A stretch of DNA of 64,000 bases from Actinomadura sp. K4S16 (GTDB taxonomy: Bacteria > Actinomycetota > Actinomycetes > Streptosporangiales > Streptosporangiaceae): positions 1,178,001-1,242,000 of the forward strand of contig NZ_BDDE01000010.1 in assembly GCF_008327685.1 (NCBI RefSeq). Reading direction: 5' to 3'. The notes under the pieces were generated by a model. That model was not told where the DNA came from and did not search any database. It saw nothing but the letters and a program-made list of their open reading frames with translations. The translations under genes and the position numbers were made by a program. How positions within the stretch are numbered: position 1 is the first letter of the stretch; each line of letters opens with the position of its first letter. Positions 2,923-12,512 of this stretch are shown here, piece after piece.

Positions 2923-2949
2923 ATGGGTCAAGCCGTGGATCGGCGTTGA
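2923..2949 (+). CDS. Eight-codon leader ORF ahead of the kinase operon
   Basis: An ATG at 2923 preceded by AGGGG (spacing 5) opens an 8-codon frame (MGQAVDRR) that ends in TGA at 2947-2949. That stop overlaps the TTG start of the first operon gene by three bases. The next gene has no ribosome site of its own, so translation of the leader could deliver ribosomes to the TTG. Alternatively the real start of the next gene is the ATG at 2976. Confidence 0.4.
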   Translation: MGQAVDRR

Positions 2950-4196
2950 GTGAACCGCGCCTGGACCGGCCCCCGATGAGCCGGGACGAGGCGGACAGGA
3001 TGCTCGCGCGCCTCCGCGACGAGAGGGAGCGCATCGGCACCGCCCTGCTGGAGCTGGAGGCCCATCAGGGCTACCAGCTGCTGGAGGGGGCGACGCTGCG
3101 CGGCGCGACGCTGCGCGTCCAGTCCGACGTGCGGTCGCGGGCGGCCTCCCTGTGGCTCCTGTTCGACCTCTACGGGCGCGCGCTCTCCGCCGCCGAGGAG
3201 CTGTGGTCCCGCCCCGGCAGACCCGGGCAGGCGCGGCTCGCCGAGCTCACCCGCCTCCTGGAGGGGCCGTCGGTGGAGCTGCCCGCTCCGGAGGTGCCGC
3301 TGGAGCGGCGGACGCTGCTGGCCGTCCCGTCCGGCGAGCGGCTGACGCTGCGGGCGGCCGTCGACCGGATGACGCCGCTGTACGAGGACGTCGCGCGGGC
3401 GGTGTCCGCGCTGGACGCCGTCTGGTCGACGCTGCTGTCGCGGCTCGCCGAGGTGGAGGCCGAGCGGCGGGCGGCCGAGGAGCTGCTGGAGTCCCTCGGC
3501 GGCGCGGACCCCGAGTTCGAAAGGCTCCGCGACGGGTTGGAGAGCGTCGCCGCGGTCGTGCGCGCCGACCCGCTCGCGCTGGCGCGGGACGGCCACGCCG
3601 ACACCGCGCGGCTGGACGCGGTCCGCTCCGGCTTCGCCGAGGTGCGGCGGAGTCTGGAGGAGGCGGAGCGGCTGCGCGACGGGTTCGCCGCCCGGCTCCG
3701 CGGCGTCGCCGCCGTCCTGGACCTGCTGCGCGAGGCCGAGGCGGAGGCGCGCGCCGCGCGGGACGAGGTGCTCGCCAAGATCACCACGTCCGCGCTGCCG
3801 GACCTGCCCGAGGCCTCCGCCGCCCTCGCCGACCGCCTCGCGTCCGTCACCCGGCCCCGGCAGGGCGCCGCCGCGCGGGGCGGCGGCTGGCGCGAGGCCG
3901 CGGAGCGCGTCGCCGACCTGGAGCGCGCGGCGGACGCGGCGCTCGCGCGGGCCCGCGAGACCGCCGGCCTGATCCGGGGCCTGCTGGACCGGCGCGAGGA
4001 GCTGCGCGGCCGCCTGCAGGCCTACCGGGTGAAGGCCGCACGGCTCGGCCACGCCGAGGACCCCGAACTGGCCCTGGCCTACGAGCAGGCACGCGAGCTG
4101 CTGTGGACCTCCCCCTGCGATCTGCGGAAGGCCACCGTGGCGCTGACCGCGTACCAGCGGGCCGTCACCTCGCGGGCGAAGGGAGCGGATCGATGA
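2946..4196 (+). CDS. Coiled-coil protein, first gene of the PknG-GlnXH operon
   Basis: A 416-residue soluble protein of unknown family, rich in Glu, Arg, Ala and Leu. Long heptad-like stretches at residues about 10-60, 150-270 and 320-370 predict coiled coils. There is no signal peptide, membrane segment or enzyme motif. The stop overlaps the kinase start (ATGA, 4193-4196), so it is translationally coupled to the kinase and may act as its scaffold or substrate. The start is uncertain: TTG 2946, coupled to a leader ORF, or ATG 2976. Confidence 0.7.
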
Positions 4197-10165: not shown

Positions 10166-11670
10166 CGGCCGTCCAGCAGTCCCCGCCGGCGGGCCCGCCG
10201 AGCCCCGCCGCGCACGCGCCGCCCCCGGCCCGGGGCGGAGGCGGCGGGGACCTCCGCCCGGCCGCCGCGCCGACCGGTGTCGCGCGGCTGCTGCCCCGCA
10301 CCGTCGCGGCCCGCGTCCGGGCGCTGACCGTGCTGTCGCTGGTGCTGCTGGTGGCGCTGCTCGGCGTCGCCTGGGCGGCGATCGGCGACGCCCGCGAGGG
10401 GGTGCGGGTCATCGGGCACGACGCGGGCCCGCAGGTCGTCGCCACCGGTGACCTGTACTTCCAGCTCAGCGACATGGACGCGCAGCTCGCGAACGCGCTG
10501 CTGATCGGCGACGCGGCGGGCGGCGGGCGCGAGCAGGCGCTCGCCCGCTACGACCAGAACCGGCGCAGGGCCGGCGACGCGCTGCTGAAGGCCGCCAAGC
10601 TCGCCGACGAGACGACCGAGAACAACACGGCCCGCGACCTGCTGGACGCGCTGGCCCGCTACGAGCGCCTCGCCGGGCAGGCCCTGCTGCTGGACCGGCA
10701 GAGCCCCCACGCGTCCGGGCCTCCGGCGCAGAAGGTCGTCGACCTCTACCGGCAGGCGACCGACCTGATGAAGCTGGACCTGCTGCCGAAGGCGTACAAC
10801 CTGACGCTCGACAACGGCACCCTCGTCCGGCACACCTACGAGGACAAGCGGTCGGCGGTCCTCGCCGGCCGCACCGGCATCCTCGCCACGGGCCTGGCGC
10901 TCGTGGCCGTCCTCGCCGGATTCCAGCTCTACCTGGCCCGGCGCTTCCGCCGGCTGCTGAACGTTCCGCTCGCGCTGGCGACGCTCGGAACGCTCGTCCT
11001 TGTCGCGGCGGGCTCCCTGATGCTCACCGGCCAGGCGGACCATCTGCGCCAGGCCAAGGAGGAGGGCTTCGACTCGATCCTGGGGCTCTCGCGGACCCGC
11101 GCCATCAGCAACAGCGCGAACGCCGACGAGACCCGGTTCCTGCTCGACCCCGGACGGGCCGACGCCTACGAGCAGGTGTACCTGAGCAAGTCGCAGACCG
11201 TCCTGTACCTGAAGGCCGGGAACCTGACCCAGTACAACGCGGCCGTCCAGAAGGATCTGTCCTTCGAGCCCGGACGCGTGCCGTTCCTCGGCTTCCTGGG
11301 CGCCGAGGCCGGGCGGCCGGCGCGGTCGGCCGCGCAGAAGGCGCGGCTCGCGGACGGCATGAACAAGGTGCTCGCCGACTACCAGAAGGTCCAGGCGAAC
11401 GACCGCCGGATGCGCGACCTCGCGGACGGGGGGCAGCGCGACCAGGCGGTCGCCGCCCGCGGTGCGGCCGCCGCCGACTTCACCCGGTACGACCGCTCCC
11501 TCCAGGCGCTGGTCGCCATCCACCAGAGGGCGTTCGACGAGGCCGTGAAGGACGGGGACGGCGGGACGAGCGGCTGGTACGCCGTCCTGCCCGCCGCCGG
11601 CGTCGTCATCGCGGCGCTCGTGCTCATCGGCGTGCGCCCCCGCCTGGCCGAGTACCGGTGGTCGAAGTGA
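10162..11670 (+). CDS. glnX: GlnX-like four-helix membrane sensor
   Basis: A 502-residue membrane protein. A Pro/Ala-rich cytoplasmic tail is followed by TM1 (about 53-74), an extracytoplasmic helical domain (75-231), TM2 (232-257), TM3 (268-290), a second extracytoplasmic domain (291-471), TM4 (472-492) and a short basic tail. This matches Rv0412c (GlnX), which relays amino-acid binding by GlnH to PknG. There is no kinase or cyclase output domain, so the signal must pass through partners, presumably the kinase complex of this operon. ATGA overlap with the FHA gene. Confidence 0.82.
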   Translation: MTAVQQSPPAGPPSPAAHAPPPARGGGGGDLRPAAAPTGVARLLPRTVAARVRALTVLSLVLLVALLGVAWAAIGDAREGVRVIGHDAGPQVVATGDLYFQLSDMDAQLANALLIGDAAGGGREQALARYDQNRRRAGDALLKAAKLADETTENNTARDLLDALARYERLAGQALLLDRQSPHASGPPAQKVVDLYRQATDLMKLDLLPKAYNLTLDNGTLVRHTYEDKRSAVLAGRTGILATGLALVAVLAGFQLYLARRFRRLLNVPLALATLGTLVLVAAGSLMLTGQADHLRQAKEEGFDSILGLSRTRAISNSANADETRFLLDPGRADAYEQVYLSKSQTVLYLKAGNLTQYNAAVQKDLSFEPGRVPFLGFLGAEAGRPARSAAQKARLADGMNKVLADYQKVQANDRRMRDLADGGQRDQAVAARGAAAADFTRYDRSLQALVAIHQRAFDEAVKDGDGGTSGWYAVLPAAGVVIAALVLIGVRPRLAEYRWSK

Positions 11671-12512
11671 GGGCGCGGCGCCTCGCGGCGGCGGTGCTCG
11701 CGGCCGCGGCCGTCCTCGGCGCGGGGACGGCCTGCGCGATCGCGGACGCCCGGGAGGACTCCGTCGCCGGCAAGAAGGCGCTCGTCATCGGCGTGAACGG
11801 CGACCAGCCGGGGCTCGGCGAGCGCCAGGGCGACGGCTCGTTCACCGGATTCGACGTCGACATCGCCAAGGAGATCGCCCGGCGCCTGAAAGTGCGCGCC
11901 GGCGACGTGACGTTCAAGCGGGTCACGTCGGCGACCCGCGAGAAAATGCTTCAGGACGGCGACGTCGACCTCGTGGTGGCCAGCTATTCCGTCACGCCCG
12001 AACGCAAGGTTCAGGTGTCGTTCGCGGGTCCCTACTATGTGGCCCACCAGGACATTCTCGTCCGCCGTTCCGACGCCGGCCGCATCCGGAACATCGACGA
12101 CCTGAAAGGGCGGCGGCTGTGCCGCGTCCCCGGGTCGGTGTCGTTCCCGCGCGTCCACGACGAGCAGGGCGTCGCGGCGCTGCCGGTCGAGGCGGGCGGG
12201 TACGCGGGGTGCCTCACCGAGCTCACCGGGGGGCGGCTCGACGCCGTCTCGACCGACGACCTGATCCTCGCGGGCCTCGCGGCGAAGGCGTCCGGGAGCG
12301 GCGGCGGGCTCACGATCGTCAACGCCCCGTTCACCGACGAGCCGTACGGCGTCGGCATCAGGAAGGGCGACGTCAACGGCTGCGAGGCGGTCAACAAGGC
12401 GATCACGGGGCTGTACCAAGACGGCACCGCCCCACGCCTGCTGGACAAATGGTTCCGCCCCGCCGGGCTGAAAGTCACCACCACCGTCCCGCAATTCGAG
12501 GGCTGCGTCTGA
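11667..12512 (+). CDS. glnH: GlnH-like amino-acid-binding lipoprotein
   Basis: A 281-residue periplasmic-binding protein of SBP family 3. An N-terminal signal ends at a weak lipobox (GAGTAC near residue 21). FDVDIAKEIARRL and DLVVASYSVTPER are the usual family segments. In M. tuberculosis GlnH binds Asp/Glu/Asn and signals through GlnX rather than through a permease; no permease or ATPase of that type is encoded here either. I prefer GTG 11667, which overlaps the glnX stop by 4 nt; GTG 11658 is an alternative adding three residues. Confidence 0.85.
   Translation: MRARRLAAAVLAAAAVLGAGTACAIADAREDSVAGKKALVIGVNGDQPGLGERQGDGSFTGFDVDIAKEIARRLKVRAGDVTFKRVTSATREKMLQDGDVDLVVASYSVTPERKVQVSFAGPYYVAHQDILVRRSDAGRIRNIDDLKGRRLCRVPGSVSFPRVHDEQGVAALPVEAGGYAGCLTELTGGRLDAVSTDDLILAGLAAKASGSGGGLTIVNAPFTDEPYGVGIRKGDVNGCEAVNKAITGLYQDGTAPRLLDKWFRPAGLKVTTTVPQFEGCV

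Follow-up and report, generated by a model that had tools for sequence, protein, structure and literature searches.

Background

Amino-acid sensing in Mycobacterium and Corynebacterium occurs through the GlnX-GlnH-PknG pathway (PMC6069109, PMC9769921, PMC8546545), and conservation of this trio across Actinobacteria has been published (PMC6069109). The subject of this work is a seven-gene operon of Actinomadura sp. K4S16, located at 2946-12512 within a 64,000-nucleotide stretch of contig NZ_BDDE01000010.1 (the window; positions are counted within it unless a contig is named), in which genes of the GlnH, GlnX, and PknG types are joined by genes for a helical protein, a PP2C phosphatase, a vWA protein, and an FHA protein. 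This expanded unit recurs across the phylum; its vWA protein is predicted to share the fold of archaeal ArnB and ends in a near-invariant tail, and a zinc ribbon at the N-terminus of its PknG-like kinase decays when the vWA gene is lost. These features, together with the gene content and the intact catalytic and binding motifs of the encoded proteins, are what is shown directly here.

The archaeal ArnA-ArnB module of Sulfolobus, with its kinases ArnC and ArnD and its phosphatase PP2A, is the second system to which the operon can be compared (PMC6509490, PMC12852372, PMC7472852). ArnA, which is encoded beside ArnB, consists of a zinc ribbon (C21, C24, C35, C38) and an FHA domain. In the ArnAB crystal, the hairpin between the third and fourth cysteines (D31-Q41) contacts ArnB, where the beta1-beta2 loop together with the linker and the C-terminal domain forms the site on which the ribbon docks. 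The FHA domain of ArnA then binds ArnB that has been phosphorylated in its C-terminus by ArnC, a kinase bearing TPR-like repeats, and PP2A reverses this phosphorylation with nutrient state (PMC12852372, PMC6509490).

The window operon resembles the GlnX-GlnH-PknG pathway in its homologous rubredoxin-kinase-TPR kinase, its GlnX-family transducer and GlnH-like receptor, its operonic organization, and the presence of a GarA/OdhI homologue in the genome; unlike that pathway, it adds the helical, PP2C, vWA, and FHA proteins, and it has extra N-terminal ribbons on the kinase, a GarA with a ribbon, and a GlnX of another subfamily. Its likeness to ArnAB lies in adjoining genes for a vWA protein with a three-domain fold (as modelled) and a zinc ribbon-FHA protein, in a Ser/Thr kinase with a TPR-like stretch, a Ser/Thr phosphatase, and a nutrient input, and in conserved Ser/Thr residues in the vWA C-terminus. 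Unlike ArnAB, it is bacterial, its kinase and phosphatase also carry ribbons, PP2C takes the place of PP2A, the operon includes receptor and transducer genes, and the two vWA proteins are only about 16% identical. The parts of the ArnAB literature available to us note the Catenulispora vWA protein 4fx5 as a structural relative and do not mention a PknG context. Actinobacterial GAP1-N2/double-GTPase neighbourhoods also contain a ribbon-kinase, a PP2C, and a standalone vWA (Kaur et al. 2020, PMC7159879), but these are GTPase-centred conflict systems, and the portions consulted mention no PknG TPR, GlnX/GlnH, or FHA. Finally, cyanobacterial SpkB has, like the window kinase, a Cys-rich N-terminal extension on a Ser/Thr kinase, which for SpkB, unlike the window kinase, is reported as redox control (PMC10651672); SpkB is not known to be connected with the present operon.

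The seven-gene operon

Translation together with Pfam and NCBIfam scans gives seven genes in tandem on the + strand, listed here with the rubredoxin pairs of the kinase as a separate entry:

2946-4196, +: first gene, all-helical 'coiled-coil' protein (CC), 416 amino acids (aa) counted from TTG
4193-6577, +: PknG-like Ser/Thr kinase, 794 aa, with two N-terminal ribbons, rubredoxin, kinase, and TPR domains
4661-4743, +: rubredoxin-type CxxC pairs of the kinase (CSSCG...CPKCG), common to mycobacterial PknG
6574-7932, +: PP2C phosphatase, 452 aa (PF13672, PP2C_2)
7929-9260, +: vWA protein, 443 aa, MIDAS motif DTSGSM (VWA_2/3 and VWA_3_C)
9263-10165, +: FHA protein, 300 aa, with two ribbons, a Pro-rich linker, and an FHA domain (PF00498)
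10162-11670, +: GlnX-like membrane signal transducer, 502 aa, in which four hydrophobic segments can be made out by eye
11658-12512, +: GlnH-like solute-binding lipoprotein, 284 aa (SBP_bac_3)

The junctions are, in order, three overlaps of 4 nt, a gap of 2 nt, and overlaps of 4 and 13 nt, just as an earlier reading of the letters alone (the sequence-only reading) had described them, nearly all as 4-nt overlaps or tiny gaps.

By its sequence the kinase counts as PknG, having rubredoxin and TPR domains (PknG_rubred PF16919, 104 bits; PknG_TPR PF16918, 299 bits) along with Pkinase PF00069, and being encoded beside GlnX-family and GlnH-family genes. Residues 124-792 align to M. tuberculosis PknG (2pzi) with an E of 8e-163, and this alignment places the catalytic Lys (VVLKG), YCDFKPDN, and IDLGG. 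The metal-ligand motifs of the PP2C are likewise intact by sequence (RNEDA, VSDGVG, GDSRAY, SDGLWN, RDNIT), with a Stp1-type similarity (NF033484, 98 bits) that is below the model's cut-off; the FHA protein has the residues of the phosphothreonine site (IGRR, VSHVHA, STNRT). The GlnX-like protein matches the NCBIfam GlnX family NF058618 at 287 bits (cut-off 250), and scores only 42 bits, versus a cut-off of 780, with the mycobacterial/corynebacterial equivalog NF041460; on these profile scores it is of the same broad family and of another subfamily. The GlnH-like protein aligns to M. tuberculosis GlnH (6h1u) with an E of 3e-31. Given the roles of the pocket residues (PMC6069109), the equivalents of R147, S164, R169, and D250 are kept, and T162 is replaced by S, W232 by Y, and K161 by A; since most residues of the acidic-amino-acid pocket are retained, an acidic amino acid is a reasonable predicted ligand. 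The CC orthologues have 'MSR.E.DR' in common at ATG 2976, which is therefore a likelier start than TTG 2946. CC is modelled as helices throughout (AF2 mean pLDDT 93.5); its fold has no convincing PDB match (best E 0.1), it matches no Pfam family, and 23 of its orthologues have no Pfam family in common.

Distribution of the unit

A sampling of the order (299 genomes, 62 genera) shows PknG_TPR in 210 of the genomes and 34 of the genera. Among 200 loci fetched because they have PknG_TPR or resemble the FHA protein (a biased sample, in which a few loci were fetched twice), about 134, from at least six families, have contiguous kinase, PP2C, vWA, and FHA genes; among the named carriers are Actinomadura, Thermomonospora, Actinoallomurus, Microtetraspora, Nonomuraea, Nocardiopsis, Streptomyces, Kitasatospora, and Streptacidiphilus, and one of the families belongs to another class of the phylum (locus L059). 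Here and below, the labels f3 (Streptomyces-like), f4 (Mycobacteriaceae-like), f92 (Frankia-like), and the genus g239 (Nocardiopsis-like) are a reading from gene content and named loci. In the compared loci the genes of the unit travel together, mainly in two orders: CC-kinase-PP2C-vWA-FHA-GlnX-GlnH in the window's family (f1), and GlnX-GlnH-CC-kinase-PP2C-vWA-FHA in Streptomyces-like, Frankia-like, and other families. The vWA and FHA genes adjoin in nearly all loci that have both. We regard it as nearly certain that the seven genes are conserved as a functional unit.

GlnX-GlnH-kinase alone is the usual state in Mycobacteriaceae-like genomes and in family f115, but in two f4 genomes (L286, L290) reduced copies are accompanied by an expanded one. 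None of the 5 Mycobacteriaceae-like genomes tested that have the reduced trio contains the vWA orthologue, and neither does any of the 20 tested genomes of the window's family that lack PknG. From this comparison of sequences, the mycobacterial glnX-glnH-pknG trio is the reduced form and the expanded unit is not a local addition. The family scans and the co-occurrence far outside this strain bear out the sequence-only reading in that the operon is a single unit, expanded from GlnH-GlnX-PknG by genes that supply an eraser and a reader beside the kinase as writer; its picture of an expansion of the mycobacterial trio has to be turned around. It had also noted that such a unit was not known as described, and in the open-access literature (most subscription journals lie outside it) no paper describing the PP2C, vWA, FHA, and helical partners was found.

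Several loci depart from these arrangements. Nine copy-B Actinomadura loci (L062, L063, L067, L094, L099, L172, L192, L200, L221) have lost PP2C, and some of them FHA too, and keep vWA and the kinase ribbon. Four f92 loci (L284, L309, L311, L312) encode a second type of PknG-like kinase with divergent GlnH and GlnX, without ribbon or accessory genes. A role as a defence system was considered and rejected, as the PADLOC matches are only to kinase-domain models plus one weak PP2C match; plasmid-borne mobility was rejected as well, its sole match being in a Nonomuraea record of 11.9 Mb, probably chromosomal.

The vWA protein and its likeness to ArnB

The AF2 model of the vWA protein (pLDDT 86) consists of a beta-sandwich split by the MIDAS-bearing vWA domain, plus a helical C-terminal domain, with disorder from residue 427. 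Its best full-length PDB matches are 4fx5, the actinobacterial orthologue from Catenulispora (Z 41.4, 54% identity), and archaeal ArnB in the ArnAB complex 8s05 (Z 24.9 over 317 residues, 16% identity; Foldseek E 7e-21). As modelled, then, the vWA protein has the three-domain ArnB-like fold. The sequence profile match to 8s05 (E 6.5e-5) covers the vWA domain only, and the C-terminal domain is matched as PF18571, not as ArnB_C. The FHA protein of the operon found no match to ArnA when its sequence was compared with the PDB. The linker of the vWA protein (336-352) is among its more conserved stretches (12th percentile).

The C-terminal tail of this protein is as follows:

9165-9218, +: vWA C-terminal tail, residues 413-430, DEMELDTRSSKTVR

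Its consensus, L-D-x-x-S-x-x-T-x-R, is near-invariant. S424 is conserved in 101 and T427 in 102 of 103 vWA proteins, with entropies of 0.16 and 0.08 bits, respectively, versus a mean of 1.41 bits, and both are invariant in 23 aligned orthologues. This conservation makes S424 and T427 candidate phosphosites. Most tails also contain [DE]-T-x-S, which recalls the ETTS site of GarA.

Zinc ribbons and the dependence of the kinase ribbon on vWA

Ribbons are found in three of the seven proteins: the kinase (two N-terminal, plus the rubredoxin), the PP2C (two), and the FHA protein (two).

4202-4258, +: kinase ribbon K1a, C4-x4-C9-x8-C18-x2-C21
4349-4405, +: kinase ribbon K1b, C53..C70
6700-6756, +: PP2C ribbon P1, CPACG...FCEECG, C-x2-C-x10-C-x2-C
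6859-6915, +: PP2C ribbon P2
9272-9322, +: FHA ribbon F1, CPSGHTSQSQDYCDVCG, C3H (CPSGH...CDVC)
9398-9448, +: FHA ribbon F2, CPDCGTPSTDRFCEACG

The placement of paired ribbons on exactly these proteins had been recognized from the letters; their description as four-cysteine throughout needs amending, because F1 is C3H. The spacing of P1 is that reported for ArnA (PMC12852372, PMC6509490).

Decay of the ribbon at the kinase N-terminus accompanies loss of vWA; it does not accompany loss of PP2C or FHA. This is seen on a tree of the kinase body (140 rows, ribbon columns left out), from which independent pairs were taken as contrasts, with the ribbon scored together with its aromatic residue before the third cysteine (Cys3). 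The presence of vWA switches 14 times on this tree. In 13 independent vWA contrasts the kinase ribbon is concordant in about 7.6 and discordant in 0 (sign test p 0.008); within vWA-positive loci it is changed in 0 of 6 contrasts for FHA loss and in 1 of 6 for PP2C loss. Upon vWA loss, ribbons P2 and F2 are unchanged, and the result for F1 is not significant. Genus g239, in which vWA has been lost repeatedly (whole-genome searches are negative), has the aromatic in 13 of 13 vWA-positive versus 6 of 15 vWA-negative loci (Fisher p 0.0008, ancestry ignored); one of these six retains a vWA remnant, and both PP2C ribbons persist in the vWA-negative loci. Judged by its position relative to Cys3, the aromatic that is lost with vWA sits in the hairpin equivalent to D31-Q41 of ArnA. 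Taken together, these comparisons suggest that the vWA protein may be a docking hub for at least the kinase ribbon, and we infer, by reasoning from them, that the ribbon docks there.

Two other patterns of ribbon loss were considered and rejected. The kinase ribbon had seemed to be absent from f1 loci without vWA; the ribbon is there, and it is the aromatic that is lost. Nor do K1, P2, and F1 disappear together as a single functional set, since K1 is degenerate in L297 and L301 although both loci retain P2 and F1, and the association of P2 with F1 is not significant.

In this genome the exact ribbon type is confined, above chance, to two pknG operons. As a DNA pattern, [DG][YF]C[DE]xCG has 7 sites in the whole 9.65-Mb genome (0 in a reversed control), 4 of them in the window operon and 3 in a second, unlinked copy on contig C14; such ribbons are not a generic feature of this genome, which favours the sequence-only reading, and orthologues across the class and beyond have them too. 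The looser [FY]CxxCG has 50 sites versus 78 in the reversed control, 13 within the two operons and 2 within the GarA homologue, and other ribbon proteins also exist in the genome. The second copy (L041, contig C14, 381000-400900) is a full seven-gene unit, and the two operon vWAs are the only members of the VWA_3_C family in the genome. The kinase of this second copy has one ribbon besides the rubredoxin, and the second FHA ribbon of the copy is degenerate.

Cysteine replacements are seen in other lineages. Four Thermomonospora-like loci (L073, L074, L075, L173) have Cys to Asp at a CxxC pair of both the kinase ribbon (CNVD) and the rubredoxin (CSVD), and L073 and L075 in FHA ribbon 2 as well (CPVD). 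In five f92 loci (L279, L283, L295, L305, L306) the fourth cysteine of the kinase ribbon is Thr, with the remaining motif conserved, and ribbons P2 and F1 are missing.

The GarA homologue and flanking genes

The genome encodes an unlinked GarA/OdhI homologue (L108, contig C11, 572829-573206; 67% identity to GarA) with an N-terminal four-Cys ribbon and an STSTIS-type site instead of ETTS. GarA with a ribbon also occurs in the expanded-unit families f1, f3, f92, and f8 and, by alignment extent, in f86 and f42; GarA lacks the ribbon in f4 (Mycobacteriaceae-like), in f115, and in f100. In the papers found there is no description of a ribboned GarA, which appears common outside the Mycobacteriaceae-like families. 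A strict tie between this ribbon and the PknG operon was rejected: f1 genomes that lack PknG or vWA still have the ribbon, and it is absent from Mycobacteriaceae-like genomes that hold an expanded copy. Because of its persistence in f1 and its absence from f100, the link between GarA ribbon and unit holds at the family level only.

Two genes flank the operon on the same strand. The gene downstream (12687-13883, +) encodes a protein of 399 aa, coiled-coil in part and of no clear family, and occurs only beside loci of the 'copy A' type in Actinomadura and its close relatives; upstream (1007-2161, +) is a gene of the glutamate-cysteine ligase family 2/YbdK type.

A model for the unit and its alternatives

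The seven genes may constitute one ancient actinobacterial nutrient-sensing phospho-signalling unit. The GlnH lipoprotein would sense amino acids, and GlnX would pass the signal through the membrane, where PknG receives it, in the manner known from mycobacteria and corynebacteria. PknG would also feed a cytoplasmic vWA-FHA module that acts like archaeal ArnB-ArnA. The kinase would dock on the vWA hub by its N-terminal zinc ribbon, held on a flexible leash, much as the ArnA ribbon docks on ArnB; once docked, it would phosphorylate Ser/Thr in the vWA tail (LDxxSxxT). The ribbon-FHA protein would read the phosphorylated tail, the ribbon-PP2C would erase the phosphate, and the helical protein may be a scaffold. 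Tail phosphorylation and its reading by FHA are modelled on the archaeal case, and we infer not only these steps and the docking but also the direction of signal flow and the output. That a GlnH-GlnX-PknG sensor is here connected to an ArnAB-like vWA hub, with PknG acting on the vWA tail, FHA reading it, and PP2C erasing, appears to us the best-supported reading and about as likely as not. A broader proposal is more tentative, and we think it somewhat more likely to be wrong than right: ancestral actinobacterial PknG would have been a bacterial ArnAB-type machine in which the vWA hub captured kinase, FHA, and possibly phosphatase and GarA by their ribbons and converted amino-acid sensing into a vWA-tail phospho-switch, and Mycobacteriaceae would have lost the hub and thereby the kinase ribbons.

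A number of observations weigh against a vWA hub of this kind. Part of the vWA signal is confounded, because in the deep contrasts PP2C, FHA, and CC disappear along with vWA, and g239 by itself gives 6 phylogenetic pairs, 1.9 of them concordant, which are too few contrasts. Locus L285 has vWA with a non-aromatic kinase ribbon, and the fourth Cys of the kinase ribbon is replaced in two vWA-positive clades (D in Thermomonospora, T in f92). The vWA surface that matches the ArnB beta1-beta2 docking loop is no more conserved than average (31st percentile), and the first Thr of the vWA tail is Ala or Val in several clades. Finally, the ArnAB literature finds the ArnB architecture to be widespread, also in proteins without an FHA partner.

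The sequence-only reading had proposed that a common ribbon tag recruits writer, eraser, and reader into one membrane-linked complex, and it gave the vWA protein no role. In favour of all the ribbons being such a homotypic tag, with vWA a bystander, are the related motifs on exactly the kinase, PP2C, and FHA, which are conserved across families and exclusive to the two operons in this genome, and the joint loss or degeneration of P2 and F1 in two lineages. This co-loss amounts to 2-3 independent events and is not significant, and the kinase ribbon survives PP2C and FHA loss and decays upon vWA loss, whereas the PP2C ribbons survive vWA loss. A shared tag is consequently unlikely: the three ribbon-bearing proteins were correctly singled out, but the kinase ribbon tracks vWA and the PP2C and FHA ribbons do not, and these contrasts, with the ArnB-like fold, make the neglected vWA protein the likely hub.

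Even less probable, in our judgment, is a role of the ribbons as redox or metal switches, which would tune the activity of kinase and phosphatase and would not bind partners. The PknG rubredoxin, for which this has been proposed, modulates activity with redox state (PMC6069109, PMC8546545), thioredoxin controls the Cys-rich N-terminus of SpkB (PMC10651672), and Thermomonospora has lost Cys in both the kinase ribbon and the rubredoxin. Yet a redox switch predicts no dependence on the vWA gene, neither the conservation nor the vWA-linked loss of the aromatic before Cys3, and no persistence of the motif after its fourth Cys is replaced. Just as improbable is a housekeeping regulon for central metabolism centred on GarA, in which PP2C and FHA would act on GarA and OdhA, and vWA would be an assembly factor. 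The N-terminal ribbon of the genome's GarA homologue, and of GarA in most expanded-unit families, fits such a regulon, but the GarA gene is unlinked and its ribbon is not specific to the PknG unit, because it persists in same-family genomes that have neither PknG nor vWA.

Significance

PknG is a virulence factor of tuberculosis and a drug target. The only lineages in which its signalling is understood are, by this genome comparison, ones with the reduced system; Streptomyces and other antibiotic producers have the full one. New here are the ArnB-like fold predicted for the vWA protein, the decay of the kinase ribbon upon vWA loss, the near-invariant vWA tail, and the ribboned GarA. If the vWA protein is indeed a hub read by FHA, it would provide substrates of PknG beyond GarA and an explanation of the extra ribbons, and it would offer simple tests at the tail phosphosite and the ribbon-vWA contact. 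It would also connect a pathway of bacteria with ArnAB of archaea and with the Sec23/24-like core fold.

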